From Tenggerimyces flavus (GTDB lineage: Bacteria > Actinomycetota > Actinomycetes > Propionibacteriales > Actinopolymorphaceae), in assembly GCF_016907715.1 (NCBI RefSeq), contig NZ_JAFBCM010000001.1, positions 3,534,001-3,598,000 on the forward strand: a DNA stretch of 64,000 nucleotides, written 5' to 3'. The notes under the pieces were generated by a model. That model did not search any database. It had not been told where the DNA came from and was given only the letters and a program-made list of their open reading frames with translations. Numbering within the stretch: position 1 is the first letter of the stretch; every line of letters starts with the position of its first letter. Below, one piece after another: positions 1 to 15,576 of this stretch. The translations under genes were made by a program, and so were the position numbers.

Positions 1-3000
1 TGCCGTTCAGCCACGTCTGCGGGTCGAAGTCGCCGTACGGGTCGTCGGACAACGTGAGCCCGCTCGCGAGCGCGCGGGACGTCGCGGTGTCCTTGCCGCC
101 GAACGAGGCGTCGGTGTACTCCTTCTCGTTCGCGATCGACGTCAGGTCGGGGATCCGGCCCTGAGGCAGCGCGTCGTCGGCGCCGATCAGCACGATGCTG
201 CGGATGCCGGTGTACGTGCCGCGGACGTGGTCGACGACCTGGTTGATCGCGCCGACGACAGCGTTCGCCTTGGCCGGCGAGCACGGGTCGGCGTCCCAGT
301 CCGCGTACGCGCCGGAGACGTCGACGGTCGAGTCGCTCTCGACCGGGACGACGACGCCCGCGACGTCCGAACGCGCGGCGTACACGTCGAGCTTGTCCAG
401 CATGGGCTGGGTGGCCGACGCTCCGTACAGATCGCCCATCCGCTTGGCGTTCACCAAGATCAGCGTCTTTGCCGTCGCCGGGATCGGCAGCGACGGGAAC
501 GTGCCCGCGCTACCGCCGCCGACGAACGTGCGCGGCTGGCAGGGCAGCGGGTCGGGACCCGGCTGCACCGACGCGCGCAGGATGTACGGCTTGTCGTCGC
601 GCGCGCCGTTGTAGCCCGACACCTGGATCGTGAACGTGCCTTCGCGGTCGCTCTCCAGCACCGGGATCGACACCGACTCGGTGCTCGTCCCGCGCTGGAT
701 CGACGTTGTGCGCAAGGGGATTCCTAGCAGTGGCGTGTCCTGCAGGCCGTTCGGCGCCACGTTGTCGCCGTCGGTCGCCGCCTGGTTCGCGCCGTCGTCG
801 ACAGGCGTCGTACGGAGCGGCGTCGTCCGCAACGGCGTCGTCCGCAACGGTGTGCTCGGGATCGCCGCGCTCGGCCCGTACACGACCAGGTCGTAGTCGG
901 CAGGAAGGTGCGACACCGAGATCCGCAGCGTCGAACCGACCTCCGGGGCGCGCAGCGTGAACAGGTCGATGTCGTCGGCCGAGGAGATGTGCGGCGCGTA
1001 CAGCGTCTCCGGCTCGATCGCCTTCGCGCCCTTGGGGTCGGCGCCCTCGTCGTGGCTGTCGTCCACGAGCTCCGGCGCGGTCGCGCCCGACGTGGCGGCG
1101 ATGCCGGCCGACCGGTCGAGCATCGTCGCGACCGACGCGGACGCCTGGTAGCTGCCCATCGTGGACGTCGGCTCGGCCTGGAAGACCAGCGTCTCGGCGG
1201 TCTTCTCGCCCGGGTAGGCACCGCCGCAGATGCCGTCGCCGTCGATCTCCGGAGAGAACGTCAGCTTCGAGCCGTCGACCACGGGCTCCGGTATCGAGTT
1301 GTCCTGGGCGGCGGCCGAGAGGCGGAGCCCGATTACCCCACCGAGGCGCGCCGAGCCCGGCACGTACCGGAAGCCGGGCGCCAACGCGACGGCGATCTCC
1401 AGCCCGCTGACCTCGTCGCACTTGATGGAGAAGTCCGTCGTGTACTCGACCAGGTCGTCCTTGCGGATCAATGCGTTGTCGAGGATCGTCTCGATCGGCC
1501 CGTCCTCGTACGCGACCTCGGTGCCGACGACGAGACCGGCCAGCAGGTCGCCGAGCCCGAGCTGGGTCAGGCCTCCGGCCGGCAGCAGCGCGAGCAGGGT
1601 CGCGACGGTGGCGTCCGGCTTGATCGCGTTCGCCGCTTGGGCATCGGCGAGAGTGGGGCAGGAAGCCGGCGCACACGTGACGAGCGACGGAACGGCACTG
1701 GTCGCCAGCGCACCGATCGGCGTCTGCTCGAGTGCGATGTCGGCCAGGAGTATGTTCCCGAGCGGCGCGTCCGTGCCGGCCAGGTCGACGTCGACGAGGT
1801 CGATCTGCTGGTCGTAGTAGGCGGACAGGTCGTCGCCGGCGAGCTCGAGGTTGAGCAGTGAGGTCGTCGTGGGGTCGACCCCGTTGCCGCAGTTGCTCGG
1901 CTGGCTCGCGAGGTATGCGCACCAGTCGCCGCCTGGCGGGTCGGGCAGCCTGTCGAGGGCGACACCGGCGAGCAGCAACGCGGACAGCGAGGTGGTCCGC
2001 AGTGGGCTCTGGGACAGGTCGATGTCCGCGAGCGTGAGGGCCTGGACGGCGGCCGGAACGGGGGTGAGCGCGAAGACCTGCGCGAGCGTGACGGTCTGGA
2101 GCGGAACGTTCTCGTAGATCGTTCCCTGCAGAACCTCCTGCCAGGTCGTCGTCCGGAGCGGGATCGCCGACAGGTTGACCGGAGCGAGCTCGGTCGTCCG
2201 CAGGGGAGTGGTGCGCAGCGGGGTGGTCCGCAGGGGAGTTGTGCGCAGCGGGGTGGTCCGCAGAGGCGTGGTGCGCAGCGGGCTGGCCTGGAGCTGGCTG
2301 GTGTCCTGGAGTGCCGAGGCGGGGAGGTTGGCCGTCGGCGTCTGCTCATGCCCGGCGGCGCTCGCGGCCGGGGCGACGGTCAGCGTCACGCTCGAGGCGG
2401 ACGTCGGCTTGCTCAACGGCTCGATCCGGCCGACCTTGCCGGGGCCGCGTTCGGCGAACCACAGGTCCTTGGCCGCGCCGAGGGCGATGCCGTACGGCTG
2501 GGCGTTCGAGGAAGGAACGGCGTAGCGCTGGAACGAGCCGCTCGCCGCGACCCGGAGGATCGCGTTGCCCTTGCCCGCGGTGAACCACATACCGCCGTCC
2601 GGCCCGGCGGTGACCAGCCGCGGCTCGGTCGACGAAGACGATCCGGACTTCCCGCTCACCGAGTACTCGGTGACGACCGGCCGTTCGCCGGTGGTGATCG
2701 TGCCGACCTTGTCCTTGTTGGTCTCGCTGAACCACAGCCGGTTGCCGTCGAGTGAGGAGGCGATGCCGGTGAGGCCCGCGTTGGACGTGGGCACCCGCGT
2801 CTCTTGCAGCTTGCCGCCGACGAAGCGCCCGATCGCGTTGCGGCCTTGCAGGGTGAACCAGATGCGGCCGTCCGGGCCGAGCGCGAGCTCCTGCGGCCTG
2901 CCGTTCTCGCCGACCGAGTACTCGGTGAACCGTACGTCCGGGCCGCCGTAGCCGCCGCCATTGCCCTGCCCGCCCTTGGCGATCGTCTCGCCCGGCGGGT

Positions 3001-3484
3001 CGATGTCGACGCGACCGATCTTGTTCTTGTCCGGAACCGTGTACCAGAGATAGCGGTCGTTCTCGCGGGCGAGGCCGAGCGGCGATCCGTAGCTGGACGG
3101 GATCTCGTAGGTGTTGACCTTCCCGGCCGTGGTGATCCGGCCGATGCTGCCGCTGTCGTTGAGCGTGAACCACAACGCGCCGTCGCCGCCGGCCACGATG
3201 CGGGATGGCGCCTTGGCGCCGTACGGCAGCTTGAACTTCGTCACCCTGCCGTCGGGGGCGACGCGGTCGATCCGGTCGCCCTCGCGTTGTGCCACCCAGA
3301 GGTTGCCGTCCGGGCCGTACGCCACGCCCTCGGGTTTGTCCCCGCTGTTCCCCACCGGGTACTCGACGACGTCGCCAGGCGCGGCCTGGGACGTCATCGG
3401 GAAGCCGACCACCGCGACGACCGCGGAAACCACGGCGACAAGGGCGATCGGCATCCGGACCTGGTTCCGGATCAGGGTCATCAT
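1..3484 (-). CDS. Large secreted protein: Vgb-like propeller, PLRTT repeats, C25-like region (3' end missing)
   Basis: The frame is open from ATG 3484 to the window edge (1161 codons, no stop), so the C-terminus is missing. A GGGGGA ribosome site lies just upstream. The N-terminus (MMTLIRNQVRMPIALVAVVS) looks like a signal peptide or anchor. Residues about 45-370 hold about seven repeats of the type GPDGxLWFT...IGRI, the pattern of the seven-bladed virginiamycin B lyase/NHL propeller. A Leu-rich pentapeptide-like stretch follows with PLRTT units (six in tandem near 2195-2285, three near 800-850, three singles). Further on is a PPC-like beta domain. The last about 160 residues (VLIGADDALPQGRIPD, LSDDPYGDFDP) resemble gingipain-type C25 peptidase regions, but the catalytic His/Cys are not identifiable here. 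Probably an extracellular or surface protein. The domain calls are by eye, and the C25 call is the weakest. Confidence 0.8.
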   Translation of the reverse strand, partial: MMTLIRNQVRMPIALVAVVSAVVAVVGFPMTSQAAPGDVVEYPVGNSGDKPEGVAYGPDGNLWVAQREGDRIDRVAPDGRVTKFKLPYGAKAPSRIVAGGDGALWFTLNDSGSIGRITTAGKVNTYEIPSSYGSPLGLARENDRYLWYTVPDKNKIGRVDIDPPGETIAKGGQGNGGGYGGPDVRFTEYSVGENGRPQELALGPDGRIWFTLQGRNAIGRFVGGKLQETRVPTSNAGLTGIASSLDGNRLWFSETNKDKVGTITTGERPVVTEYSVSGKSGSSSSTEPRLVTAGPDGGMWFTAGKGNAILRVAASGSFQRYAVPSSNAQPYGIALGAAKDLWFAERGPGKVGRIEPLSKPTSASSVTLTVAPAASAAGHEQTPTANLPASALQDTSQLQASPLRTTPLRTTPLRTTPLRTTPLRTTPLRTTELAPVNLSAIPLRTTTWQEVLQGTIYENVPLQTVTLAQVFALTPVPAAVQALTLADIDLSQSPLRTTSLSALLLAGVALDRLPDPPGGDWCAYLASQPSNCGNGVDPTTTSLLNLELAGDDLSAYYDQQIDLVDVDLAGTDAPLGNILLADIALEQTPIGALATSAVPSLVTCAPASCPTLADAQAANAIKPDATVATLLALLPAGGLTQLGLGDLLAGLVVGTEVAYEDGPIETILDNALIRKDDLVEYTTDFSIKCDEVSGLEIAVALAPGFRYVPGSARLGGVIGLRLSAAAQDNSIPEPVVDGSKLTFSPEIDGDGICGGAYPGEKTAETLVFQAEPTSTMGSYQASASVATMLDRSAGIAATSGATAPELVDDSHDEGADPKGAKAIEPETLYAPHISSADDIDLFTLRAPEVGSTLRISVSHLPADYDLVVYGPSAAIPSTPLRTTPLRTTPLRTTPVDDGANQAATDGDNVAPNGLQDTPLLGIPLRTTSIQRGTSTESVSIPVLESDREGTFTIQVSGYNGARDDKPYILRASVQPGPDPLPCQPRTFVGGGSAGTFPSLPIPATAKTLILVNAKRMGDLYGASATQPMLDKLDVYAARSDVAGVVVPVESDSTVDVSGAYADWDADPCSPAKANAVVGAINQVVDHVRGTYTGIRSIVLIGADDALPQGRIPDLTSIANEKEYTDASFGGKDTATSRALASGLTLSDDPYGDFDPQTWLNG

Positions 3485-3690
3485 GTTCCCCCAAAGTGGC
3501 GCAAACGGGCATTCCCCCAGAACGCAGGGACCATGACACCACGGGATGCCGTGATCCGACTCGCTTATGGTGTGATTTTGTCGACCGGTCTCACGCCTGG
3601 TCGGAGCATTGCGCACTTATGGGAGAGACTTGCGCGCAGGGGAGTGAACAGAGCGGGCCGGATCCGCGACCAGAGGGAACAAGTGAGGCG

Positions 3691-6600
3691 ATGAGGTACG
3701 TCGCGCGGCGCCACGCACAGTGGCTGGCCGACGACCCGGGGGGCGCGGCCTGGACGGCCGCCGAAGGCACGTTGGTGTTTGCCGACGTCTCTGGATTCAC
3801 GTCGTTGTCCGAACGGCTCGCGCGGCGCGGCCGTGCCGGCGCGGAGGAGCTCACCGATCTGGTCAACCAGGTCGTGGGCGGCATCCTCGGCTGTGCCACG
3901 CCGCTCGGCGGCGACCTGCTCAAGTACGGCGGAGACGCACTGCTGTTGATGTTCGAGGGTCCGGACCACGAGGCTCGGGGAGTGGCTGCCGCCGCGGCGA
4001 TGCAGGCGGAGCTGCGGCGGTTCCGGGACTTCCGTTCGGAGTCGGGGCGCGTCACGTTGAAGATGTCGATCGGCGTCGAAGCGGGCCGGATCGACTTGTT
4101 TATCGGGGGAAACGCCCACCGAGAGCTGCTCGTGGCCGGCCGGACGGCCAGCCGCGTGGTCGATCTGGAGGGCCTCACCCGCGCGGGACAGATCGTGGTC
4201 GGGCCGTTGGCGGCGAAGGTGCTTCCGTCCCGTCATCGCGGTGCCGCGGTCGGTCCGGACGGTGCGGTGCTGGTCCGTTCGACGCCCACGGCGACGGCGG
4301 CCGGATCGCTCGAGCCCGTCCCGCCGACGCAGGACGAGCGCGGCATCCCGTTGGCGCTCCGGCCGCACCTCGGCCGCGTCGACGGCGAGCATCGGCAGGC
4401 CGCGGTCGCGTTCGTCCAGGTCCGCGGGCTCGACGGCCTGGTCGAACGGGACGGGACGAAGGCCGCCGCCGAGGCGCTGCACGAGATCGTCCTCGCGGTC
4501 CAGGCCGCGTGCACTGACCACGGCGTGACGTTCCTCGGCACCGACGTCGACATCGACGCGGCGAAGTTCATCCTCGTCACCGGCGCCCCGACCACGGTCG
4601 CCGATGACGAGGACCGGTTGGTCTCGGCCTGCCGCGCGATCCTCGAGGCGGAGCTGCCGCTGCCGGTACGGATCGGCGCCCACCGCGGCCGGGTCTTCGC
4701 GGTCGAGGTCGGCGACGCCGAACGCCGCGTCTATACGGTGCTGGGCGACGCCGTGAACGTCGCCGCCCGGGTGATGACCGCGGCTCCCGTCGGCCGGCTC
4801 CTCGCCACGTCGGCCTGCCTGGACCGGGTGGTGGCGTCGTACGCCCGCGAACCGGTCGAGCCTTTCGCGGTGAAGGGAAAGAGCGAACCGATCCAGGCCG
4901 CGTTGGTCGGTCCGATCGAACGCGCCGCCGAGTCGGTGCTCGCTCCGACCGACGGGCCGCTGATCGGCCGGCAGGAGGAGCTGCGGCTGCTGCTCGACGC
5001 CGTCGACGGCGCGCGGGCCGGGGAACGGCGGGTGGTGGAGATCCTCGGCGAGCCGGGCATCGGGAAGTCCCGGCTGCTCGCCGAGGTCTGCGCGCAGGTG
5101 GGCGATTTGCCGCTGGTCGTCGTGCAGGCCCGGCAGTACGCGTCGAACGAGCCGTACCGCGCCGTCCGCGACCCGCTGCGCTCGCTACTCGGGCTGCGGG
5201 TGACGGAGCCGGAGGACGAGGTCGCCGAGGCACTCGCCGCGAAGGTCCGCGAGTTCGTGCCGGACCTCGAACCGTTGCTGCCGCTGATCGGCGTTCCGTT
5301 CGGGGTGCATCTGCCGGACACCGAGGCGACAGCTGGGCTCGCGCCGGACTACCGGCGGTCCCAGCTGAGCGCGGCGACGTTCCGTCTGCTCGGGCGGCTG
5401 CTTCCGACGCCCGGCGTGCTGGTGGTCGAGGACGCGTACTGGCTGGACGACGGATCGGGGCAGCTGCTCTCCACCCTGATCGGCGCCATGCGCGGCAATC
5501 ACCACTGGGCGGTGTTCGTCGCCCGGCGCGGTGAGGGCAAGACGCTCGATCTGTCGGACGTGCCCGATCTCGTCCGGTTGGATCTCCAGCCGCTGCCAGC
5601 GAAGCACGCGCTCGCCTTGGCCAAGGCCGGTGGCTTCTCGGCCGCGGACGCGGAGGCGCTGGTCGAACGCAGCGGCGGAAACCCGCTGTTCCTCCGCGAG
5701 CTCGCCGCGGCGGCCGAACGGGGCACCGCGGTCGACGAGCTGCCGGACAACGTCGAGGCGGTGATCGCCGCGCACCTCGACACGCTCGACGTTCGCGCGC
5801 GAGATCTGGTCCGGGTGGCGGCGGTGCTCGGGTCGCACTTCCCGACCGACCTGCTGTTGAAGCTGGACGGGGACAGCCGCGAGGTCGCGCTGTCCGCGCT
5901 GCGCCGGCTGCGCGGGATCGTCGATCCGGACGGCGCGGACCGGTGCCGATTCGCGCACGCGATGCTGCGCGAGGGCGCGTACAACGGGCTGTCGTTCCGG
6001 CGCCGGCGCCAGTTGCATGGTCGCGCGGGCGACCTCATCAAGGCGTACGACGACGACACGGTCGAGCGCCGGGCCGCCGCGCTGTCGCTGCACTACCACG
6101 CGGCGGCACGGCATCAGGACAGCTGGCACTGGTCTCTGGTCGCGGGCGAGCAGGCGCAACGAGACGCCGCGCCCGTCGAAGCGGTGGCGCTGTTCAGCCG
6201 GGCGCTCGACTCGGCTCGCCCCGCCGAGGTCGGCACGCACGAGGTAGCGGCGCTGACTGAGCAACTCGGTGACGTTGCCGAGCTGGGCGGGCTGTTCCAG
6301 CAGGCCCAGGACGCCTACCGCCGAGCCCGTCGGCTGCGGTCAGGGGACCACGTCGCGGCGGGCGACTTGCTGCGCAAGCAGGGCCACGTCGCCGAGCGTG
6401 AGGGCCGGTACTCGTTCGCGCTCCGCCTGTATGGACGTGGGTTCCACGCGCTCGAGCAGGCAGGGGCGTCGACGGAGGTGGACCGCGTCAAGGCGGAGTT
6501 GACACTTGCGTACGGTGCGACCCGGCTCCGGCAGGGCCGGTACTCCGACGCCGTGCGCGTGCTCGAGGAGGCGGTCCGTCAGGCCGGGGCTCAGTCCGAC

Positions 6601-7446
6601 CGCGCGGCCTTGGCGCACGGGTACTACCTGCTCGACTGGGCACGGACCGACCTGGGCGCGCCCGATCCCTCCTTGCGGACGATGGCGCTGCCGATCTATG
6701 AGGAGCTGGGGGACTGGCTCGGGCAGGGGAACGTTCTCAACAACCTCGGTGTCGACGCGTACTACGAGGGGGAGTGGAGACAGGCGACCGACTACTACCG
6801 GCGGAGTCGTGAGGCGTTCGAACGCGTCGGGCACGCGGTGCTCGCGGCGACGGCGACCAACAACATCGGCGAGATCCTGTCCGACCAAGGGCAGCTGGAG
6901 AAGTCGCGGGCGGAGTTCCGGGAGGCACTTGGCACCTGGCAGCTCGCCGGCTACACGATCGGCGTGGGGATCGCGACGTCGAACCTCGGGCGTGCGGCGG
7001 CCCGTTCTGGTGACCTGGACGAGGCGGCGGCGCTGTTGGCCCGGGCGCGGTCGGACCTCGCGGAGATCGGCGCGGACTCCCTGGTGATCGACGCGGAGGG
7101 CCGGGAGGCCGAGCGGTTGCTGTTCGTACCCGATCCGGACTCGGCGCTCTCCGTGGCGTCGGCGGCTCGGGCGCGGGCGGACCAGCCGGTGCAGCGGGCG
7201 TTCCTGGACCGGACGATCGGCTGGGCGCTGGCGCAGCAGGGGCTGGTGTCCGAGGCGGTGGCGAAGCTGGAGGAGAGCCTTGCCGCGGCGGTGGCCTCGG
7301 GGACGCGGTACGAGGAGGCGCTGACCCGGTTGGCGCTCGCGCGCATCACCTCTGCCGACGATGCCGCTGCCTCGTCGATCCTCGCTGCTCTCGGCGTCGT
7401 CGCGGTGCCTTCGCCGCCGCTGCCCTCTCTGCCCTCACTGCCCTAG
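3691..7446 (+). CDS. Double class III cyclase-like/AAA ATPase/TPR regulator
   Basis: A 1251-residue protein. ATG 3691 was chosen because it lies about 30 residues before the first cyclase motif; an in-frame ATG at 3619 is possible. Cyclase-like domain 1 (about 25-200) has both metal Asp positions (FADVSGF D32, GGDALLLMF D82) but no N-x3-R motif. Domain 2 (about 235-400) has Q243 in place of the first metal Asp and keeps N356-x3-R360. The two halves could therefore form one composite site. Next comes a STAND/AAA NTPase with Walker A GEPGIGKS near residue 455, then TPR-like helices to the C-terminus. Proteins of this layout are cytosolic signalling or transcription-linked ATPases. There is no DNA-binding domain at the end. 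It stands alone, diverging from the giant secreted protein and converging on the NTF2-like pair. Confidence 0.9.
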   Translation: MRYVARRHAQWLADDPGGAAWTAAEGTLVFADVSGFTSLSERLARRGRAGAEELTDLVNQVVGGILGCATPLGGDLLKYGGDALLLMFEGPDHEARGVAAAAAMQAELRRFRDFRSESGRVTLKMSIGVEAGRIDLFIGGNAHRELLVAGRTASRVVDLEGLTRAGQIVVGPLAAKVLPSRHRGAAVGPDGAVLVRSTPTATAAGSLEPVPPTQDERGIPLALRPHLGRVDGEHRQAAVAFVQVRGLDGLVERDGTKAAAEALHEIVLAVQAACTDHGVTFLGTDVDIDAAKFILVTGAPTTVADDEDRLVSACRAILEAELPLPVRIGAHRGRVFAVEVGDAERRVYTVLGDAVNVAARVMTAAPVGRLLATSACLDRVVASYAREPVEPFAVKGKSEPIQAALVGPIERAAESVLAPTDGPLIGRQEELRLLLDAVDGARAGERRVVEILGEPGIGKSRLLAEVCAQVGDLPLVVVQARQYASNEPYRAVRDPLRSLLGLRVTEPEDEVAEALAAKVREFVPDLEPLLPLIGVPFGVHLPDTEATAGLAPDYRRSQLSAATFRLLGRLLPTPGVLVVEDAYWLDDGSGQLLSTLIGAMRGNHHWAVFVARRGEGKTLDLSDVPDLVRLDLQPLPAKHALALAKAGGFSAADAEALVERSGGNPLFLRELAAAAERGTAVDELPDNVEAVIAAHLDTLDVRARDLVRVAAVLGSHFPTDLLLKLDGDSREVALSALRRLRGIVDPDGADRCRFAHAMLREGAYNGLSFRRRRQLHGRAGDLIKAYDDDTVERRAAALSLHYHAAARHQDSWHWSLVAGEQAQRDAAPVEAVALFSRALDSARPAEVGTHEVAALTEQLGDVAELGGLFQQAQDAYRRARRLRSGDHVAAGDLLRKQGHVAEREGRYSFALRLYGRGFHALEQAGASTEVDRVKAELTLAYGATRLRQGRYSDAVRVLEEAVRQAGAQSDRAALAHGYYLLDWARTDLGAPDPSLRTMALPIYEELGDWLGQGNVLNNLGVDAYYEGEWRQATDYYRRSREAFERVGHAVLAATATNNIGEILSDQGQLEKSRAEFREALGTWQLAGYTIGVGIATSNLGRAAARSGDLDEAAALLARARSDLAEIGADSLVIDAEGREAERLLFVPDPDSALSVASAARARADQPVQRAFLDRTIGWALAQQGLVSEAVAKLEESLAAAVASGTRYEEALTRLALARITSADDAAASSILAALGVVAVPSPPLPSLPSLP

Positions 7447-7847
7447 GAGGGGAGGGCGGCGGCGAGGTAGTGGTCCTGGGCGGCCGGGTCGCTCGCGATG
7501 CCCCAGTACTCGACGACCTTGCCGTCTCGTACGGTCATCACCTCGGCGCGGAGGATGTCCAGTTTGCGCCCGGCGTGCTCGCCCCGTACCCGAAGGAAGA
7601 CGATCGCGCGGTCGTCGTTCACGAGGACCTCCTGCGGTGTGACCCACAGGCCCGGGATCTGCAGCTGGCGGCGGAACATGGCCAGGCCCTCGTCGCCCTC
7701 GAGGTCGCCGGAGAGCGCGTTGTCGCCACCGAAGTGCCAGCGGGTCTGCTTGGTGAACACGTGCGCCACCTCGTCGGTCGCGCCGGCGGCGATGCGTCCG
7801 ATCGCGGTCCGCAGCCGCTGGGCGTTCGGGTGCTCCGCACCGTTCAT
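7443..7847 (-). CDS. NTF2-like/SnoaL-type protein
   Basis: A protein of 134 residues, the normal size for a single cone-shaped NTF2-like domain. Typical features are an early conserved W-HFGGDNALSG segment and the C-terminal pattern KVVEYWGI. It is similar to the neighbour just upstream (GGxNALSGD versus GGQHALSGDYHG) and overlaps it by ATGA, so the two are tandem duplicates in one transcript. Its stop codon shares bases with the stop of the convergent cyclase gene. NTF2-like proteins can be small enzymes (ketosteroid isomerase or SnoaL cyclase types) or ligand carriers; nothing here fixes the substrate. Confidence 0.85.
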   Translation of the reverse strand: MNGAEHPNAQRLRTAIGRIAAGATDEVAHVFTKQTRWHFGGDNALSGDLEGDEGLAMFRRQLQIPGLWVTPQEVLVNDDRAIVFLRVRGEHAGRKLDILRAEVMTVRDGKVVEYWGIASDPAAQDHYLAAALPS

Positions 7848-8248
7848 ACCGGTTGCCCCCAGAACTCGTCGACCGCGCGCTGGTCGTTGGCGAGGCCGAA
7901 CCGCCTGGTCCAGCGCCCCTGGTCGTCGAACTGGATCGCGAGCGCGATCGTGACGTCGAGCGCGCGGCCGAGCCGGGTGCCGAACACCCGGTAGATCACG
8001 GCGCTGTAGCGATCGCTGGCGAGAACGTCCTCGATCGTCATGCTCAACGTTCCGTTGGCGAGGCGCTGGGCCTCGCGGAGATGTTCGATGACGTTCTCCC
8101 GTCCGTGGTAGTCGCCGCTGAGCGCGTGCTGACCGCCGACGTTCCAGACGATGTCGTCTGCGAACCGCGTCGACATCGCCTCGAAGTCGCCCCGTCCGTA
8201 GGCGACGAAGGCCGCACGGACGTTGATCGCATGGGGGTGTTCCCGCAC
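7844..8248 (-). CDS. NTF2-like/SnoaL-type protein, first of a tandem pair
   Basis: A protein of 134 residues starting MREHPHAINVRAAFVAYGRGD and ending in a WGQPV tail. FADDIVWNVGG and the LSGDYHG turn are typical of SnoaL-like proteins, where an early Asp/His/Trp cluster lines the pocket. It is translationally coupled to the downstream paralogue by a four-base ATGA overlap, consistent with a heterodimer or a recent duplication. The upstream region is shared with the divergent small gene at 8335 and holds the GGTTACAC/GTGTAACC motif. Function and ligand are unknown. Confidence 0.85.
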   Translation of the reverse strand: MREHPHAINVRAAFVAYGRGDFEAMSTRFADDIVWNVGGQHALSGDYHGRENVIEHLREAQRLANGTLSMTIEDVLASDRYSAVIYRVFGTRLGRALDVTIALAIQFDDQGRWTRRFGLANDQRAVDEFWGQPV

Positions 8249-8275
8249 GCTAAGGGGGTCGCGTACGGATCGGTT

Positions 8276-8313
8276 CGGTTACACGAGGCCGTCCACGACC
8301 TGCGGTGTAACCG
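8276..8313. promoter_or_regulatory. Inverted motif CGGTTACAC ... GTGTAACCG
   Basis: Two perfect 9-base inverted arms, CGGTTACAC at 8276-8284 and GTGTAACCG at 8305-8313, are separated by 20 bases. They lie between the NTF2-like pair (minus) and the small gene at 8335 (plus). The same core, GGTTACA/TGTAACC, lies upstream of the paralogous small gene that begins near 11875. This looks like a regulator binding site shared by the two paralogues. Which protein binds is not known. Confidence 0.55.
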
Positions 8314-8334
8314 ATTGCCGGGCCGTACGTCTAG

Positions 8335-8580
8335 GTGCATATCGACGCATTAGCTGCTGACCGCCTGGTCCAGAAGCTCCGCGAGTTCTCCCGTAGCGGC
8401 CTGGACGAAGACGAACGCGCCCTCTTCGCGGTCCTCCTGGCGCCTGGGATCGCCCAGGCTTATGCGCGAGACGACGTGTCGGGGTACTCGGTGACGGAGT
8501 GGGATCCCCGGACGTTCCCCGAGTCGTTGGCGACCGCGTTGCGCGACTCGGGCGTGATGGTCGTCGGCCTCGACGACTGA
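8335..8580 (+). CDS. Small uncharacterised protein, paralogue A
   Basis: An 81-residue protein with a GTG start and no ribosome site; the sequence CTAGGTGCAT at the start suggests a leaderless transcript. It aligns along its length with the protein encoded at 11660-11875: both contain LDEDERALFAVLLAPG, then QAY-DDVSGY-TEW, then PESLA-ALRD-GV-VVGLD at the C-terminus. It is acidic, without Cys, signal peptide or membrane segment. I do not recognise the family. The two copies flank the GAF-protease-sigma unit and share an upstream inverted motif, so a regulatory or substrate role linked to that unit is possible but unproven. Confidence 0.75.
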   Translation: MHIDALAADRLVQKLREFSRSGLDEDERALFAVLLAPGIAQAYARDDVSGYSVTEWDPRTFPESLATALRDSGVMVVGLDD

Positions 8581-8594
8581 CTACGCCGCTTGCC

Positions 8595-9173
8595 CTATCC
8601 GGAGACGGTGCGGCGCATCACGCAGTTTCCGATGCCCTTGCTCCGGACGAACTCGAAACCGGCGCGCTCGAACAGAGCCCGGCTGCCGTTGTAGAGGACC
8701 GACTTCCGCTTGCCGGCGTTGTCGTGCGGATAGCCCTCGACGACGCCGCCGCCCGCCGCCGCGATCAGGTCGAGGGCGCCCTGCAGCACGACCGCCGAGA
8801 GGCCGCTGCGGCGGTGGCGCTTGTCGACGAAGATGCAGGTGATCCGGTAGTCAGGCAGGAGGTCGAGCTCGGCGTCGTACTGCTTGCGGTGGTAGATGTT
8901 CGGGAGCTCGGCCGGGCTTCCGTACTCGCACCACGCGACCGTCTCGTCCCCGTCGTACGCGAGCGCCGCATGTGCCCGTCCCTCCTCGACCAGGCGTCGT
9001 TTGAGGGACCGGTTGGCGTCGTAGGTGCGTTCCTTCTCGTCGTTCATCGTGTGGAAGTAGGTGCACCAACAGCCGCCGAACACCCCGTTGTGCCGCTCCA
9101 CCATCGCGGCGAACCCGTCCCAGGTGTCCGCGTCGAGTGGCCTGACGACGTACGTGCTCAGCTGCTGCTCCAT
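8595..9173 (-). CDS. GNAT-family N-acetyltransferase
   Basis: A 192-residue protein starting MEQQLSTYVVRPLD. An N-terminal WDGFAAMVERHNGVFGGCWC block and a central acetyl-CoA loop (VDKRHRRSGLSAVVLQGAL, about 125-145) match GNAT proteins; the RxxG core is HRRSG. The C-terminus (LFERAGFEFVRSKGIGNCVMRR) is the usual last strand of this group. Actinobacteria often carry such proteins annotated only as GNAT; the acceptor is unknown. A longer open frame continues upstream but overlaps the region before the GAF gene and has no coding character, so the internal ATG at 9173 was chosen. Confidence 0.88.
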   Translation of the reverse strand: MEQQLSTYVVRPLDADTWDGFAAMVERHNGVFGGCWCTYFHTMNDEKERTYDANRSLKRRLVEEGRAHAALAYDGDETVAWCEYGSPAELPNIYHRKQYDAELDLLPDYRITCIFVDKRHRRSGLSAVVLQGALDLIAAAGGGVVEGYPHDNAGKRKSVLYNGSRALFERAGFEFVRSKGIGNCVMRRTVSG

Positions 9174-9380
9174 GGGCTCAGCATCGCAGCCAATCCGGAC
9201 GTTCCGCGTCCGAAATGACTGCCGACGCGGCCAGAGATCCGGGGGACCAGTTTCTCCGTCGTGACCAGGTCGGCTGCCAAAGACTTGCCCCGTAATGCGA
9301 CCGTCGGATGTCAGCATCCGGTGTAATACCCGGAGAGGCTTCCCGCGGGTGGCGGGGGTCGTTCGAGGAGGGGCGAAGTC

Positions 9381-10124
9381 TTGGCTGACGAGGTGGGTAC
9401 GCGTGTCCTTCCAGAGCTTGCTCGGATCGCCTCCGAGCTCGGGCCCGCACTCGCCCCGGCGGCACACAAGGAGCTGCTGACCTCGATCACGGTCGCCGCG
9501 CGGCGCCTGTTCCACGCCGAGGCCTGCTCGATCGCGCTGGTCAGCGACGACGAGACCGAGCTGGTCTTCCACGTCGCGACGGGCGGCGCCGAGGAGGACA
9601 TCGTTGGTATGCGGGTCCCCATCGGCGAGGGCATCGCCGGCTGGGTGGCGCTCGCCGGGCAGCCGCTCGCGATCGAGGACGTCTCCCAGGACCCGAGGTT
9701 CGCGGCCGACTTCGCCGCCAGTACGGGATACGTACCGCGCTCGATCCTCGCCACCCCGATGGAGACCGAACGGCAGATCATCGGCGTCATCGAGGTCCTC
9801 GACCGCGACCCCGAGGCCGACGGCAGCGCCGACATGGAGCTGCTCGCGCTCTTCGCCAACCAGGCGGCGCTCGCGATAGAGAACTCCCGGGCGTTCGGCG
9901 AGCTCGGCAAGACGCTCTTCCAGGCCGCCGCCCTCGCGAGCGACGACCACGGCGTACGGGCCGCGCTCGACCAGGTCGCCGCCAGCACGAATGGCCCGAC
10001 CCAGGAGCTCGCCGAGCTCTCCGCGGTGTTCGCCGAGCTGGGCCGGCTCGGCCCGGCGGAGCGGACCGCCGCGACCCGGCTCGTACGCCAGTTCCTCGAC
10101 TACGTCCGCGGAGAGTCGACGTGA
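9381..10124 (+). CDS. GAF-domain sensor protein
   Basis: A 247-residue cytosolic protein with a TTG start preceded by GGAGGGG. Residues about 30-185 form one GAF domain (VAARRLFHAEACSIALV, VPIGEGIAGWVA, ILATPM, GVIEVLDR, LALFANQAALAIEN), the small-molecule/redox-binding fold of phytochrome-like sensors. The last about 60 residues are helical (ELAELSAVFAELGRLGPAERTAATRLVRQFLDYVRG) and look like an interaction segment. There is no kinase, cyclase or HTH output domain. Its stop overlaps the start of the protease gene, and that gene overlaps the sigma factor gene, so the three are made together. The likely output therefore runs through those partners. Confidence 0.9.
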   Translation: MADEVGTRVLPELARIASELGPALAPAAHKELLTSITVAARRLFHAEACSIALVSDDETELVFHVATGGAEEDIVGMRVPIGEGIAGWVALAGQPLAIEDVSQDPRFAADFAASTGYVPRSILATPMETERQIIGVIEVLDRDPEADGSADMELLALFANQAALAIENSRAFGELGKTLFQAAALASDDHGVRAALDQVAASTNGPTQELAELSAVFAELGRLGPAERTAATRLVRQFLDYVRGEST

Positions 10125-10963
10125 AGCCGGCCTGGTCGGCACAGTTCGATGCGGGCGAGCTCGGTACCACCCAGGCGCTGCCCGTCGACGGCCCGATCAC
10201 GCGGGACTGGGCCATCGGCGGCGCGACCGGCGCGGGCGTCAAGGTCGCCGTGGTCGACAGCGGCATCGACGCGAGCCACCCCGCTGTCGGGGCGGTCCAG
10301 GGCGGCGTGGTCGTCGGGCTGAACGAACGCGGCGAGGTCCAGGTCGTCGAGGGCGAGCACGAGGACCTGTTCGGCCACGGCACCGCCTGCGCCGGGATCA
10401 TCCGCGGGATCGCGCCGGAATGCGAGCTCTACAGCGTCCGCGTCCTCGGCAGCCGGCTGTCCGGGAAGGGGCAGGTCTTCGCCGCCGGACTGCGCTGGGC
10501 GATCGAGAACGGGATGCAGGTCGTGAACCTGTCGCTGGGGACGGGCAAGCGCGATCACTTCGCAGAACTCCACGATTTGGCCGACGAAGCGTATTTCCGG
10601 CAGACCATGCTGGTGTCGGCGGTGAACAATGTCCCTGTGCCCTCCTACCCGTCCCAGTACTCGTCGGTCTTCTCCGTGGCCGCGCATGACCGGACGGATC
10701 CGTTCCATTTCGACTACAACCCCTCGCCGCCGGTCGAGTTCGGCGCCCCCGGGATCGACATCGAGGTCGCGTGGATGCGCGGTTCGACGATCCGGGCGAC
10801 CGGCAACAGCTTCGCCGCGGCACACGTCAGCGGGATGGTCGCGCTGCTCCTGTCCCGTCATCCGGGACTGACGCCGTTCCACGTCAAGACGGTCCTGCAC
10901 GCGCTCGCCGACAACGCGGCCCCGGCCGGAAGGGCCGCGGTCGCGAGTTCGGGGCGCCCGTGA
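10121..10963 (+). CDS. Subtilisin-like (S8) serine protease, intracellular
   Basis: A 280-residue protein with a GTG start overlapping the GAF gene. The catalytic triad is visible: D46 in VVDSGID, H86 in GHGTACAG, S230 in GNSFAAAHVSG. The oxyanion Asn is in the VSAVNN segment. There is no signal peptide, no inhibitor propeptide and no C-terminal extension; it is close to a bare S8 catalytic domain, so activity inside the cell is expected. Adjacent genes are a GAF sensor and an ECF sigma factor, both overlapping it by four bases. A model in which the protease acts on an inhibitor or on the sigma factor's own tail is an inference. Confidence 0.92.
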   Translation: MKPAWSAQFDAGELGTTQALPVDGPITRDWAIGGATGAGVKVAVVDSGIDASHPAVGAVQGGVVVGLNERGEVQVVEGEHEDLFGHGTACAGIIRGIAPECELYSVRVLGSRLSGKGQVFAAGLRWAIENGMQVVNLSLGTGKRDHFAELHDLADEAYFRQTMLVSAVNNVPVPSYPSQYSSVFSVAAHDRTDPFHFDYNPSPPVEFGAPGIDIEVAWMRGSTIRATGNSFAAAHVSGMVALLLSRHPGLTPFHVKTVLHALADNAAPAGRAAVASSGRP

Positions 10964-11631
10964 CGGAAAGCGGCGTTGCTGAGCTCGTACAGGCTGTCCG
11001 CGCGGGCGACCAGGACGCGTTTGCCCGTCTCTACCGCGAGAACGTGGGGGCGGTGCACCTCGCCGTTCGCGACAACCTGCGCGAACCGGACAGGGTGGCG
11101 GATGCCGTCCAGGAGACGTTCGCCCGCGCACTCGCGTCGCTGGACAAGCTGCGCGACCCGGACCGGTTCCGCCCGTGGCTGTTGGCGATCGCCCGGCACA
11201 CCGCGGTGGACCTGCGGCGGGTGGCGAGCCGGTACGGGACCGACGAGCTCGAGGACGACGCCGTCGTCACCTCGGACTCCGACGACCCCGCCGAGCTCGC
11301 AGCGCTGCGGGACGTCGCGGGCATGGTGCGCGGTCTGGTCGCCGGTCTGTCCCGGCGCGATGCGGTCGCGCTCAACCTCGTCACGCTCGGTTTCGACGTC
11401 GCCGACGTTGCGGCGGCGCTCCGGGTGAAGCACGGCGCGGCGAAGGTCGTCCTCCACCGAGCCCGGCGCCGACTCCGCGCGGCACTGGTGCTCCAGCTCC
11501 TGGCTGGGGGTACGGCGACCTGCCCGGAGCTCACGTCGATCCTGGACAAGAGCGGCGTGACCGCGGCGGGTAAGCATGCGGAGACCTGCCCCGAGTGCGA
11601 ACGTTCCGCACGTAAGGCGGTCTACGGGTAA
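10960..11631 (+). CDS. ECF-type sigma factor with C-terminal HxxxCxxC motif
   Basis: A 223-residue protein, GTG start overlapping the protease stop. Sigma region 2 spans about 10-85 (LYRENVGAVHLAVRDNL, ADAVQETFARALASLDKL, FRPWLLAIARHTAVDLRR). Region 4 is about 115-165 (LSRRDAVALNLVTLGFDVADVAAALRVKHGAAKVVLHRARRRLR). A tail of about 45 residues contains TCPEL and then KHAETCPEC. The HxxxCxxC pattern is the hallmark of zinc-binding anti-sigma (ZAS) proteins, here attached to the sigma factor itself. No separate anti-sigma gene is adjacent. A built-in redox or proteolytic control is plausible. The longer open frame upstream was rejected because it overlaps the protease. Confidence 0.9.
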   Translation: MTESGVAELVQAVRAGDQDAFARLYRENVGAVHLAVRDNLREPDRVADAVQETFARALASLDKLRDPDRFRPWLLAIARHTAVDLRRVASRYGTDELEDDAVVTSDSDDPAELAALRDVAGMVRGLVAGLSRRDAVALNLVTLGFDVADVAAALRVKHGAAKVVLHRARRRLRAALVLQLLAGGTATCPELTSILDKSGVTAAGKHAETCPECERSARKAVYG

Positions 11632-11659
11632 GTCGCGGCCTGGCTGGCGACGAGTGCCC

Positions 11660-11875
11660 TTACTCGTCCAGGCCGACGACTCGGACTCCCGCATCGCGCA
11701 GGGCCTCGGCGAGGGACTCCGGGAGCGCGGCTGGGCTCCATTCCGTCATCGCGTAACCGCTGACGTCGTCCTCGACATAGGCCTGTGCGACTCCGGGGGC
11801 CAACAGGACGGCGAAGAGTGCACGCTCGTCCTCGTCCAGAGAGGTCTTCGCGAAATCGCGGAGCTTCCGGACCAA
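11660..11875 (-). CDS. Small uncharacterised protein, paralogue B
   Basis: A paralogue of the protein at 8335-8580: LDEDERALFAVLLAPGVAQAY, EDDVSGYAMTEW, and a C-terminus ending RVVGLDE. The only conventional in-frame start is TTG 11875 (71 residues). Homology to copy A continues about 10 codons further upstream (ATC GAC ACT CAA ...), where the DNA reads CTAGGTATCGAC against CTAGGTGCATATCGAC in copy A. The true start is therefore unresolved; a non-standard start or a lost GTG are both possible. It converges on the sigma factor gene. Function unknown. Confidence 0.65.
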   Translation of the reverse strand: MVRKLRDFAKTSLDEDERALFAVLLAPGVAQAYVEDDVSGYAMTEWSPAALPESLAEALRDAGVRVVGLDE

Positions 11876-11927
11876 CCGGGCAGCAGCTTGAGTGTCGATA
11901 CCTAGATTGTCGCTGTAGGCCCGCTGT

Positions 11928-11985
11928 GGTTACATCCAGGTCCGCATTTCTCTACACACAGTTTCCGTTGGCGAGCCGTGTAACC
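11928..11985. promoter_or_regulatory. Second copy of the GGTTACA/TGTAACC inverted motif
   Basis: GGTTACAT at 11928-11935 and GTGTAACC at 11978-11985 lie upstream of small gene B. Copy A has the same arms 22 bases closer together. A difference of two helical turns would keep both half-sites on the same DNA face. The arms, the CTAGG block near the start and the downstream protein are all duplicated, which argues for a conserved regulatory module. Confidence 0.5.
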
Positions 11986-12117
11986 GGTCGGGCAGGTGAT
12001 CGTCTTGCTTATCGACGCCCGCCCGTATGGGGGTGTTGGGGATTCAGCTTCCGAGGGTCGGCCGCCTCAGCCCGGCTCTCGCGTTGCGGATCCGGGGGGA
12101 GTCGAGGGGGAGGGAGT

Positions 12118-12154
12118 GGGTCCGCGACGCGAGCGAGAAGCGTGTCGCGGACCC
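12118..12154. terminator. GC-rich hairpin between small gene B and the kinase
   Basis: A perfect 11-bp stem, GGGTCCGCGAC at 12118-12128 and GTCGCGGACCC at 12144-12154, with a 15-base loop. It lies immediately 3' of the minus-strand kinase stop at 12164. No U-run follows, as is usual in high-GC actinobacteria. The rest of the gap 11986-12117 shows nothing I can assign. Confidence 0.55.
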
Positions 12155-12163
12155 GCTTCCCAT

Positions 12164-12685
12164 TTACGGGCCCCGGTAGAGCAGCGAGCCGTTCTGGATC
12201 GCTAGCTGGAGCTGCTCGGTGGGGTCGTCGTCCGACCTCAGGACATGCCGCGGGTCGAACTCGGCGGCGGCGAACTCGCGGTGCAGCTGCCTGATCGCGT
12301 CGGCGTCCCGGAGACTGTCCTCGGAGCGGGCCAGCGCTCGCTCGACGCAGCACTCCACGGTGGGCAGCAAGACGACGTAGTGCAGCCTCGGCACGTTCGC
12401 GGCCTGAGCGAACGCCCCGATCATCCACGGTCCGACGACCCCGTCGTAGATCGTGGCGTAGCCGCCGGTGACGTACGCGTTGACGGCTGTCGCGGCGGCG
12501 CGGAGCACTGTCTCGTTCTGCGTGGCGGCTTCGGCCAGCCAGGGCTCGACGTAGCCGGTGCGCAGGAAGCCGAAGAACGCGTCACCCACGACGAGCGCGC
12601 TGGGCGCGTACTTCTCCGCGAGCAGCCGGGCGACCGTCGACTTGCCGGCACCCGGTGGCCCGGAGACCACGATCAGCTCGGACAT
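12164..12685 (-). CDS. P-loop kinase (AAA_33/zeta-toxin-like fold)
   Basis: A 173-residue protein beginning with a Walker A motif, SGPPGAGKSTVARLLAEKY (about 8-26). DAFFGFLRTGYVEPW probably reads the substrate, and YDGVVGPW is the second conserved Asp region. The RALAR motif near residue 115 looks like the lid arginine of small-molecule kinases. Family members phosphorylate gluconate, chloramphenicol, nucleosides or other small molecules. No neighbouring gene narrows this down. No paired antitoxin is seen, so a toxin role is unlikely. Confidence 0.87.
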   Translation of the reverse strand: MSELIVVSGPPGAGKSTVARLLAEKYAPSALVVGDAFFGFLRTGYVEPWLAEAATQNETVLRAAATAVNAYVTGGYATIYDGVVGPWMIGAFAQAANVPRLHYVVLLPTVECCVERALARSEDSLRDADAIRQLHREFAAAEFDPRHVLRSDDDPTEQLQLAIQNGSLLYRGP

Positions 12686-12700: not shown

Positions 12701-13471
12701 CTATCCCTGCAGCGCTTGGGCTGAGGGGACGAGCACGGACACGCCGGTGGCGGTGGCCCAGCGCTCTACTTCGGCGCCGATCGCCTTGGCCGTCTGCTTG
12801 TCTCCCGCCTCCTGGGCCAGCACGCCGAGGAGCAGCTGTTGGGCCAGCGCGCCCGGGATGAAGCCCGCCGCCTGGCGCAGCGAGGTCGACCGTTCCCACT
12901 GCTCCCGCGCCCCGGCGACGTCGCCCGCGTCGTTGGCGTGGTCGCCCAGGTGCCGGAGCGGGTACGACGCCAGCAGGTCGTCGCCGTCCTCCGTGGCCAG
13001 CCGAAGGGACTCGGCGTAGTGCGGCGGCGCCGACGCGCGGTCCTCGGCGAGGTTGTCCGCGATCAGCCCGAGGTAGAACTCCACCCACCCCCGCGCCACC
13101 GGTGTCGGCGCGCCGGCGCCGAGCGCCGAGGCGGTCGCGGCCAGGGAGGCGGCCTGCTCCGGGGTCCCCGTTCCGCCGAACAGAGCCTGGCTGTAGTCGG
13201 CACGCAGCTCCATCCAGTCCAGCTCCCACGCCAGAGTGGGATCGTCGTCGAGCTGCTTGCGAGCAAGGGCGATGGCGTCCCCGCCGGACGAACCCGTCCA
13301 GAACCCGCGGTCCACCTCGGCCGAGGCGACGGCCACGGCGACGCGGGCCGCGTCGTGCGGAGACGAGACGGACGTCGAACGAAGCAGGGCTACGGCAACG
13401 TCCCAACGGGCAGCCAGGACGAGGGAATCGGCAGCGGACAGGACGGCGTCGAGCGAGCACGTAGTGGTCAT
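12701..13471 (-). CDS. Helical-repeat (TPR-like) protein
   Basis: A 256-residue cytosolic protein rich in Ala and Leu, with repeated helix pairs (LVLAARWDVAVALLRS, EFYLGLIADNLAEDRASAPPHYAESLRLA, LGDHANDAGDVAGAREQWERSTSLR). This is the look of degenerate tetratricopeptide repeats, as seen in many actinobacterial proteins with no assigned role. It diverges from the MarR gene across the palindrome at 13485-13515, which suggests MarR controls it. Confidence 0.8.
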   Translation of the reverse strand: MTTTCSLDAVLSAADSLVLAARWDVAVALLRSTSVSSPHDAARVAVAVASAEVDRGFWTGSSGGDAIALARKQLDDDPTLAWELDWMELRADYSQALFGGTGTPEQAASLAATASALGAGAPTPVARGWVEFYLGLIADNLAEDRASAPPHYAESLRLATEDGDDLLASYPLRHLGDHANDAGDVAGAREQWERSTSLRQAAGFIPGALAQQLLLGVLAQEAGDKQTAKAIGAEVERWATATGVSVLVPSAQALQG

Positions 13472-13484
13472 GGCGACGGACGAT

Positions 13485-13515
13485 ACTTCACCGGCGAACT
13501 ATTCGCCCGTGAAGT
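13485..13515. promoter_or_regulatory. MarR-type operator palindrome
   Basis: Arms of 14 bases (ACTTCACCGGCGAA and TTCGCCCGTGAAGT) flank CTA, with one mismatch. It lies in the 72-bp gap between the divergent TPR-like gene and the marR gene. The plus-strand -10-like TAGGTT (13532-13537) begins 17 bases after the end of the right arm's GTGAAG, so the palindrome covers the -35 position of the marR promoter. TAGGTT ends 6 bases before ATG 13544, which implies a leaderless mRNA. Binding by the adjacent MarR would repress both genes. Confidence 0.75.
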
Positions 13516-13543
13516 AACGCGAGAAGTGCGCTAGGTTCTGACG

Positions 13544-14035
13544 ATGCGAGACTCGGTCGACGAACGGGTGGAACGGCTGCATCGGGACTTCCCGACCATC
13601 GACCCCGTCGTCCAGGCGATCGCCGGCAGGATGCTGCTGATCGCCCGCGAGCTGGACCGACGCGCCCAGGCGGGACTCGACCAGTACGGCCTCGAGCTCT
13701 GGGCGTACAAGACGCTCATGGACCTCCGCCGCCGCGGCGAGCCGTACGAAGCCAAGCCGAGCGAGCTCGCCACCTCGCTCCGGATGTCGCCAGCCGCGAT
13801 GACCAAGCGGCTCGACTCGCTCGAGCGGGCCGGGTACGTACGCCGAGCGACCGACCCCCACGACCGGCGCAGCATCGTCGTCACGCTGACCGACGAAGGC
13901 CGGCAGGCCTTCGAGGGATCGGTCGAAGCTCAGTCCAGCGCCGAGGAGGAACTGCTCGGCACGCTCACTCCCTCCCAGCGCGGTCAGCTCGCGAGCACGT
14001 TGCGGAAGCTCGTTCTGGCGCTGGAACCGGACTAG
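13544..14035 (+). CDS. MarR-family transcriptional regulator
   Basis: A 163-residue protein. Dimerisation helices bracket a winged HTH at about 70-130: KPSELATSLRMSPAAMTKRLDSLERAGYVRR is the recognition helix region, and DPHDRRSIVVTLTDEG is the wing with the conserved DxRxxxVxLT pattern. The start is leaderless (see the palindrome). It is followed after 15 bp by ftsY on the same strand. MarR proteins usually respond to phenolic or oxidative signals and repress an adjacent gene; the divergent TPR-like gene is the likely target. Confidence 0.93.
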   Translation: MRDSVDERVERLHRDFPTIDPVVQAIAGRMLLIARELDRRAQAGLDQYGLELWAYKTLMDLRRRGEPYEAKPSELATSLRMSPAAMTKRLDSLERAGYVRRATDPHDRRSIVVTLTDEGRQAFEGSVEAQSSAEEELLGTLTPSQRGQLASTLRKLVLALEPD

Positions 14036-14050
14036 CCACCGTCTGCGAGT

Positions 14051-15220
14051 ATGGCCGACGTGGAGTTCCTGATCGCCGCCATCGCGCTCGTCGTCGTTGC
14101 CGCAGTCGTTCTCGGGTTCGTCGTCACCGGTCGCCGCCGCAAGTCGCTGCCCGGCTCGGACGCCCAGCCGACGCTGCCCGGAACGGGCATCCGGGACGAG
14201 TCGCCCGAGGGCTCACCAGCCGGTACGACCGCCACCGTCGAGGTGCCGGTCGCGCCGGAGACCGAGGCGACCGAGACGCCGACGCTCGAGAAGCCGGCTC
14301 CCGCGCAGGGCCGGCTGGTCAGGCTCCGCGCGCGGCTGGCCCGTTCGCAGACCTCCCTCGGCCGCGGCCTGCTCGCGCTGCTCTCCAAGGACCGGCTCGA
14401 CGAGGACACCTGGGAGGAGATCGAGGACGCGCTCCTCACCGCCGATGTCGGCGTCGCCCCCACCCAGGAGCTGGTCGAACGTCTCCGTACCCGCGTCCGC
14501 GTCGAAGGCATCTCCACCCCCGACCAGGCGAAGGCGATCCTCCGCGAGGAGCTGCTCACCCTCGTCGGCCCCGACACCGACCGTTCGCTGAACGTCGAGC
14601 GCGAGGGCCTCAACCCCGCCGTCGTCCTCGTCGTCGGCGTGAACGGCACCGGCAAGACCACCACCGTCGGCAGGATCGCCCGGGTGCTCGTCGCCGAGGA
14701 CAAGGACGTGCTGCTCGGCGCCGCCGACACGTTCCGCGCCGCCGCCGTCGACCAGCTCGTCACCTGGGGCGACCGGGTGGGCGTGCCGACCGTGCGCGGC
14801 CCCGAGGGCGGCGACCCGGCGAGCGTGGCGTTCGAAGCGGTGAAGGCCGGCGCCGAGCAGGAGGTCGACGCCGTACTGATCGACACCGCCGGCCGGCTGC
14901 ACACCAAGACCGGGCTGATGGACGAGCTCGGCAAGGTCAAGCGGGTGATCGAGAAGCAGGCGCCGGTGACCGAGGTGCTGCTGGTGATCGACGCGACGAC
15001 GGGGCAGAACGGGCTCACCCAGGCCCGCGTGTTCTCCGAGGTCGTCGACGTGACCGGCATCGTGCTGACCAAGCTCGACGGCACCGCGAAGGGCGGCATC
15101 GTGATCGCGGTCCAGCGGGAGCTGGGGGTGCCGGTGAAGCTGGTCGGGCTCGGCGAGGGCCCCGACGACCTCGCCCCGTTCGACCCCGCGGCGTTCGTGG
15201 ATGCCCTTCTGGGCGACTGA
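14051..15220 (+). CDS. ftsY: Signal recognition particle receptor FtsY
   Basis: A 389-residue protein. The N-terminal hydrophobic segment (FLIAAIALVVVAAVVLGFVV, about 6-25) is typical of actinobacterial FtsY. After an acidic/Pro linker come the N domain (about 90-180) and the SRP GTPase G domain: GVNGTGKTTTVGR (G1), DTFRAAAVDQL, DTAGRLHTK (G3), TKLDGTAKGG (G4) and a closing GLGEGPDDLAPFDPAAFVDALLGD. It receives the SRP-ribosome complex at the membrane and pairs with Ffh, encoded at 57387. Its last 24 codons are copied in the tandem array directly after the gene; the first copy's stop gives a normal-length protein. Confidence 0.98.
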   Translation: MADVEFLIAAIALVVVAAVVLGFVVTGRRRKSLPGSDAQPTLPGTGIRDESPEGSPAGTTATVEVPVAPETEATETPTLEKPAPAQGRLVRLRARLARSQTSLGRGLLALLSKDRLDEDTWEEIEDALLTADVGVAPTQELVERLRTRVRVEGISTPDQAKAILREELLTLVGPDTDRSLNVEREGLNPAVVLVVGVNGTGKTTTVGRIARVLVAEDKDVLLGAADTFRAAAVDQLVTWGDRVGVPTVRGPEGGDPASVAFEAVKAGAEQEVDAVLIDTAGRLHTKTGLMDELGKVKRVIEKQAPVTEVLLVIDATTGQNGLTQARVFSEVVDVTGIVLTKLDGTAKGGIVIAVQRELGVPVKLVGLGEGPDDLAPFDPAAFVDALLGD

Positions 15221-15545
15221 GGCGGCGCTGGGCGTGCCCGTGCTGCGTTCATGGGGCTCGGCGAGGGCCCCGACGACCTCGCCCCGTTCGACCCCGCGGC
15301 GTTCGTGGATGCCCTTCTGGGCGACTGAGGCGGCGCTGGGCGTGCCCGTGCTGCGTTCATGGGGCTCGGCGAGGGCCCCGACGACCTCGCCCCGTTCGAC
15401 CCCGCGGCGTTCGTGGATGCCCTTCTGGGCGACTGAGGCGGCGCTGGGCGTGCCCGTGCTGCGTTCATGGGGCTCGGCGAAGGCCCCGACGACCTCGCCC
15501 CGTTCGACCCCGGCCGCCTTCGTGGATGCGCTTCTCGGAGACTGA
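15149..15545 (+). repeat. 108-bp tandem array formed from the 3' end of ftsY
   Basis: Copies begin at 15149, 15257, 15365 and 15473, a period of exactly 108 bases. Each contains the last 24 ftsY codons, the stop and about 36 bases beyond. The first three copies are nearly identical; the fourth differs at several sites and has one extra base. The outermost (fourth) copy is therefore probably the ancestral gene end. A 114-codon open frame runs through the array only because 108 is a multiple of three; it is not called as a gene. Confidence 0.93.
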
Positions 15546-15576
15546 GTTTGCTGGAGTCGCATCGGTCGCCGGCATA

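Follow-up and report, generated by a model that had tools for sequence, protein, structure and literature searches.

What does a cytosolic subtilisin cut when its gene is located between those of a GAF-domain protein and a sigma factor? The question is raised by three overlapping genes (Table 1) of Tenggerimyces flavus, within a stretch of 64 kb that was analysed as a whole and is referred to here as the window. The initial annotation of this stretch proposed that the GAF domain licenses the protease (S8), and that the sigma factor becomes active once its ZAS-like tail has been cut or released by this protease. We consider it more likely that the protease trims small peptides carrying a common motif, rather than the adjoining sigma factor, because the GAF-S8 pair spans phyla and is usually found beside genes for such peptides. 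The reading that we favour, with modest confidence and from sequence comparison, is that GAF and S8 constitute a conserved module of RiPP-like peptide systems, one that acts in cytosolic processing, with two small proteins that flank the triplet, A and B, as its substrates and the sigma factor as a neighbour.

Table 1. Features of the locus, with positions in the 64 kb window
Feature	Position	Strand	Remarks
Class III cyclase-AAA-TPR protein, possible further component	3289..7446	+	Guanylate_cyc, AAA_16 and TPR matches; true start probably downstream of 3289
Inverted repeat TCGGTTACAC-N20-GTGTAACCGA, upstream of gene A	8275..8314	.	10/10 pairs
Small leader-type protein A, 81 aa, DDVSGY; candidate protease substrate	8335..8580	+	Leader profile match 0.0013
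GAF-domain protein	9381..10124	+	TTG start; first gene of the GAF-S8 pair; Pfam GAF 1.3e-18
Cytosolic subtilisin-like protease (S8), without propeptide or signal peptide	10121..10963	+	GTG start; Pfam Peptidase_S8 5.4e-30
ECF-like sigma factor with fused short ZAS-like tail	10960..11631	+	GTG start; Sigma70_r2 7.7e-10 (Pfam)
Sigma tail, residues 188-223, C-x17-HxxxCxxC	11521..11628	+	Four putative ligands, invariant in four orthologues
Small leader-type protein B, 71 aa from TTG, DDVSGY; candidate protease substrate	11660..11875	-	Leader profile match 0.0007
Inverted repeat GGTTACA-N44-TGTAACC, upstream of gene B	11928..11985	.	Paired pattern, genome-wide search

The gene triplet and its protease

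The gene-level description in the initial annotation was borne out. The four-base overlaps are exact in the ORF coordinates at both junctions (GAF/S8 and S8/sigma), and the protease has a complete D/H/S triad (D46, H86 and S230), which is invariant in the alignment of 78 relatives, as is the oxyanion asparagine N170. The S8 domain starts approximately 35 residues in, which leaves no room for a signal peptide or propeptide, and a conserved PAWS motif is found at the N terminus. The HxxxCxxC at the C terminus of the sigma factor is likewise present, and we add Cys188 as a fourth likely ligand. The two small paralogous genes on either side of the triplet had been overlooked. No sigma-70 consensus promoters were found across positions 9100-12200.

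The AlphaFold model of S8 is that of a confident subtilisin (mean pLDDT 93), and its best PDB matches were subtilisin BPN', in engineered and native forms. The best NCBIfam match was the QhpE family NF049966 (9.1e-36), and membership of this family was rejected at 123.3 bits versus a curated cut-off of 165. A precedent for leader removal by a cytosolic subtilisin is QhpE, of quinohemoprotein amine dehydrogenase maturation, whose substrate loses a leader of 28 residues (PMC7876137). The window protease resembles QhpE as a cytosolic S8 enzyme with no secretion signal. QhpE is encoded beside its leader-bearing peptide substrate, and the small leader-type genes flanking the triplet encode candidate substrates. 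Unlike QhpE, the triplet has no recognized qhp genes alongside, and a near-universal GAF partner is a feature of the GAF-S8 loci.

Assignment as a type VII mycosin was also rejected, at 122 bits versus the TIGR03921 cut-off of 278.75 (NCBIfam). With respect to the secreted, membrane-anchored form of the mycosins, the N terminus of S8 is too short to hold a signal peptide, and after residue 262 there is no C-terminal helix of hydrophobic character. A defence system and a phage origin were considered and set aside: PADLOC returned just a generic subtilase profile, and tblastn against phages gave no match.

The sigma factor tail does not track the protease

The ligand pattern of the sigma factor tail is C188-x17-H206xxxC210xxC213; the protein ends 10 residues after C213 and contains no cysteine before C188. 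Pfam made no zf-HC2 call on the tail. Short helices are predicted there (pLDDT ~72-82) by an AlphaFold model that is of low confidence overall (pLDDT 55) and was used for the tail helices only. Orthologues from three genomes of the same family (G001, G005 and G007) share 68-74% identity and each have a complete tail, with all four residues invariant across the four sequences. They are encoded near ftsY, as in the window. Neither GAF nor S8 was found beside any of the three, and no close member of the S8 family was found anywhere in their genomes, in which the best S8 matches had 34-36% identity and E values of 1e-15 to 1e-20, versus 1e-187 for the window gene. At 1e-28, no orthologue of the sigma factor was detected in the 394 other genomes of a 395-genome Actinomycetes sample.

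Two observations concern the surroundings of these genes. All three orthologues (L027, L028 and L029) are preceded by a mini-ORF of 25-28 codons, unconserved in sequence, that overlaps the start of the sigma gene by the same GTGA. In the window, the 3' end of ftsY (15146-15546) holds a tandem repeat with a 108 bp unit (3.7 copies, 97% matches), the copies of which re-encode the C-terminal end of FtsY.

The model of tail cleavage had led to the expectation that the tail would be kept only where the protease is present. Instead, the tail is complete in three orthologues from genomes without a close protease of the S8 family, and the sigma factors that adjoin GAF-S8 at two other loci (L053 and the Miltoncostaea plasmid L064) have no such tail. 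Since the tail occurs without the protease, and protease-linked sigma factors occur without the tail, the two are independent of each other. The search for the triplet in other genomes, suggested together with the model, gave a linked sigma gene at only 3 of 79 GAF-S8 loci, the window included, leaving 76 without one. Furthermore, the motif common to the small proteins described below is absent, even in relaxed form, from the sigma factor, as it is from GAF and S8 of the window. In support of tail cleavage, the four-base overlaps imply co-expression, activation by proteolysis has been proposed for fused-ZAS ECF sigma factors (ECF52; PMC8999054), and the three loci with an adjoining sigma gene are spread over two or more distant branches of the protease tree. 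Taking both sides together, we regard activation of the sigma factor through GAF-licensed cleavage of its tail as very improbable.

The best reading of the gene product is a family-specific ECF-like sigma factor that is a lineage-specific neighbour of GAF-S8. The tail is probably the sigma factor's own metal or redox switch, a role documented for further sigma factors whose extensions contain Cys (PMC8999054). The fused-ZAS groups ECF52, ECF48 and ECF53 are defined by transmembrane helices and a regulatory extension that can reach 400 residues (PMC8999054); the window sigma factor shares with them a ZAS-like zinc-finger motif (C...HxxxCxxC) after sigma region 4, but its tail is a soluble stretch of 36 residues with no transmembrane or extracytoplasmic part. 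It shares with CorE-type sigma factors (ECF238) a short, soluble, Cys-containing C-terminal extension, which is Cys-rich and metal-sensing in CorE, whereas it lacks the CXC motif in the sigma2-sigma4 linker by which that group is defined (PMC8999054). As a soluble sigma-ZAS fusion of minimal size, the family would allow zinc or redox control to be studied without a membrane partner. In related genomes, two loci (L005 and L012) encode sigma factors in which a fused C...HxxxCxxC domain precedes a long extension, similar to ECF52.

GAF-S8 pairing and a motif in neighbouring small proteins

We read 79 GAF-S8 loci in their genomic context, and used 47 control loci for motif counts. GAF adjoins S8 at 75 of the 79 loci, in several phyla and in either order (GAF-S8 or S8-GAF); the four without GAF comprise two loci cut by a contig end, one where the 3' flank extends for only ~440 bases, and a distant match of 42%. 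The earlier view of the three genes as one unit therefore survives for GAF and S8, and fails for the sigma factor. Close relatives of S8 (~46-68% identity) were found in 11 of 396 sampled Actinobacteriota genomes, in 27 of 395 Actinomycetes and in 35 of 301 from the phylum to which G433 belongs (recorded as Chloroflexi), as well as in records under the names Dormibacterota, Thermoleophilia and Verrucomicrobia. In the protease tree, the window belongs to a clade of 18 members (support 0.985) where CRP genes are frequent, and lies 2.3-2.8 from the other two sigma-linked loci. With so few linked loci, and the window so far from the others, linkage of a sigma gene to GAF-S8 was rejected as a general rule. 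Because of the distance between the window clade and the other sigma-linked loci, the linkage probably arose more than once.

The companions of the pair were MFS exporters (41 of the 79 loci), CRP-type regulators (40), cyclase-AAA-TPR proteins related to that of the window (23, in several cases immediately before S8) and radical SAM proteins (5). By NCBIfam, the L050 transporter is close to NHLM and further exporters of peptides, the cyclase of L203 is close to the TOMM kinase/cyclase, and small proteins of L058 and L203 match a curated aroma-sacti RiPP domain (5e-21 and 2e-23, respectively). In their precursor, exporter, cyclase and radical SAM genes, many GAF-S8 loci resemble RiPP systems whose precursors are NHLP-type or aroma-sacti, whose exporters are NHLM-type and which contain relatives of the TOMM kinase/cyclase. 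They differ from these systems in the GAF-S8 pair itself and in a single motif common to unrelated precursor types, and the window differs further in that no exporter or modifying enzyme was recognized beside the triplet.

Some individual loci carry additional features. L098 encodes an MFS exporter (2555-4261, minus strand) with a C-terminal domain resembling cyclic-nucleotide-binding domains (residues ~422-548), and several exporters at other GAF-S8 loci are similar to it. Upstream of GAF in L103 and L115, from Chloroflexi-phylum genomes, are tandem NHLP-like precursor genes (~7 in L103). In L058, a repeat peptide (EPEVVAH...WCGVHQ; 14666-15001, minus strand) is encoded near a radical SAM-like gene (13364-14632, minus strand), ~6 kb from GAF-S8, and the two may be another RiPP cluster, one that has a related motif.

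Small proteins beside the pair carry the motif [DE][VT][EQ][GA][HY], which was found in 51 small ORFs at 41 of the 79 loci, whereas the reversed motif gave 5. A single ORF held at least two copies at 27 loci (reversed motif, 0), and the control loci gave a single motif ORF and none with repeated copies. The motif mostly follows acidic residues and is often repeated (DDDVEGH). In the leader-type precursors of L099, L100, L101, L104, L106 and L119, it is positioned at the presumed leader/core junction, as in DVQGY/AKGNGNFYY (L099), DVQGY/WSLCFGSVIVG (L104), DVEGY/TYTVSWLTCCC (L106) and EVQGY/LSPSCGLTVLF (L119). Because one motif is found in unrelated precursor types next to one adjoining protease, we infer that it may be a common recognition or cleavage site for that protease.

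Alternatively, GAF-S8 could be a general regulated cytosolic protease of quality control or stress proteolysis, with the motif proteins as inhibitors, adaptors or unrelated neighbours. In the stretch examined, approximately half of the loci lack an ORF with the strict motif, as this alternative would allow, and the role of the motif proteins as substrates is deduced from sequence. The repetition of the motif, its leader-core placement and the co-occurrence of RiPP-type genes and exporters at these loci argue against a general protease, which we consider unlikely. Returning to a peptide-processing module, no relevant papers on aroma-sacti, on DVEGH-type motifs or on GAF with a subtilase in RiPP clusters were found in a literature of partial coverage, and to that extent the module appears undescribed.

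The profile of the GAF family finds cyclic-nucleotide-binding GAF domains as its best matches (CyaB2, 1ykd, 1.7e-36; cGMP PDE, 5w10), and the closest solved GAF domains bind cAMP or cGMP. The family is thus related by homology to the GAF domains of Anabaena CyaB2, PDE2A and PDE5, but the window protein keeps their NKFDE motif only in part (D141, R142, G148 and D151, with D141-R142 in place of NK and no F at 148). At the corresponding sites the family has D in 72 of 73 sequences, K/R, F in 41 and D in 62. A cyclic nucleotide is our leading guess for the ligand, given these profile matches and the CRP-type and cyclase genes at the same loci. Ligand control of S8 by GAF, as first proposed, is accordingly a plausible part of the original scheme, judging from the solved relatives; the licensing of a cut in the sigma tail is not upheld.

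Small proteins A and B and a model for the locus

The two small proteins of the window are 71% identical and both contain KLR(E/D)F...LDEDERALFAVLLAPG...DDVSGY; homology of B extends to ~11902. Among ORFs of 50-200 aa in the window, only A and B contain the relaxed motif, and they fit the relaxed pattern only, with S in DVSGY where the strict motif has E/Q. A leader profile was built from leaders chosen by eye at L100, L101, L052 and L022, with no window sequences among them. When searched against all ORFs of the loci, it returned a new match in L021 (8e-7) together with A and B, the similarity of which to the other leaders is weak (E ~1e-3, with eye-picked seeds). The region after DDVSGY is conserved between the paralogues, and may be a folded domain, less like a variable core. 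Between the cyclase gene and gene A are two overlapping SnoaL-like genes (7443-8248, minus strand).

Genes A and B also share an upstream inverted repeat, of short form GGTTACAC-N-GTGTAACC. A search of the 8.52 Mb genome for GGTTACA-N16-46-TGTAACC gave exactly two occurrences, one in front of each small gene, whilst the reversed control occurs nowhere. The shared repeat is operator-like. Among 37 relatives, the only homologue of A and B was found in G005, 3' of the sigma orthologue, and is preceded by GGTTACAC-N58-GTAACC.

The G005 locus is open to two interpretations. It keeps a sigma gene, a convergent small gene and the repeat with no GAF-S8, as would be expected if A and B were a separate local system, perhaps that of the sigma factor, with GAF-S8 inserted between them and its substrate encoded elsewhere. 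However, G001 and G007 have the sigma gene and no small gene, the leaders of A and B resemble precursors at other GAF-S8 loci, and DDVSGY is found in both window copies and is absent in G005. The absence of DDVSGY where GAF-S8 is also absent fits with a motif that is kept for the protease, in this single case. We judge a separate system to be improbable, though less so than cleavage of the sigma tail.

We therefore retain the processing module as the preferred reading and suggest the following sequence of events. A signal, probably a cyclic nucleotide or a similar molecule, would reach GAF, which would control its partner subtilisin; S8 would then cut small precursors at or near [DE][DE][VT]x[GA][HY]. 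In the window, the likely substrates would be the two flanking DDVSGY proteins, the transcription of which may be set by their common operator-like repeat. The module would have come to lie in front of a sigma gene native to the family, with which it would now be co-transcribed. The targets of the sigma factor may include the locus itself, which it would regulate instead of the CRP regulator of related loci, while its tail would act as its own metal or redox switch.

Beyond this locus, we tentatively put forward, as a possibility rather than an expectation, that GAF-S8 represents an undescribed and widespread class: a cyclic-nucleotide-gated cytosolic subtilisin that recognizes one D-[VT]-x-[GA]-[HY] tag on unrelated precursors (multi-repeat, NHLP-type, aroma-sacti type and leader-type) and frees peptides for export under the control of CRP, a cyclase or, in some lineages, a sigma factor. 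If this is true, a substrate tag would be predictable for a protease family present in ~12% of sampled Chloroflexi-phylum genomes and 7% of Actinomycetes, opening genome mining for a large set of unrecognized peptide products, and the maturation of these peptides would be tied to cyclic-nucleotide signalling.
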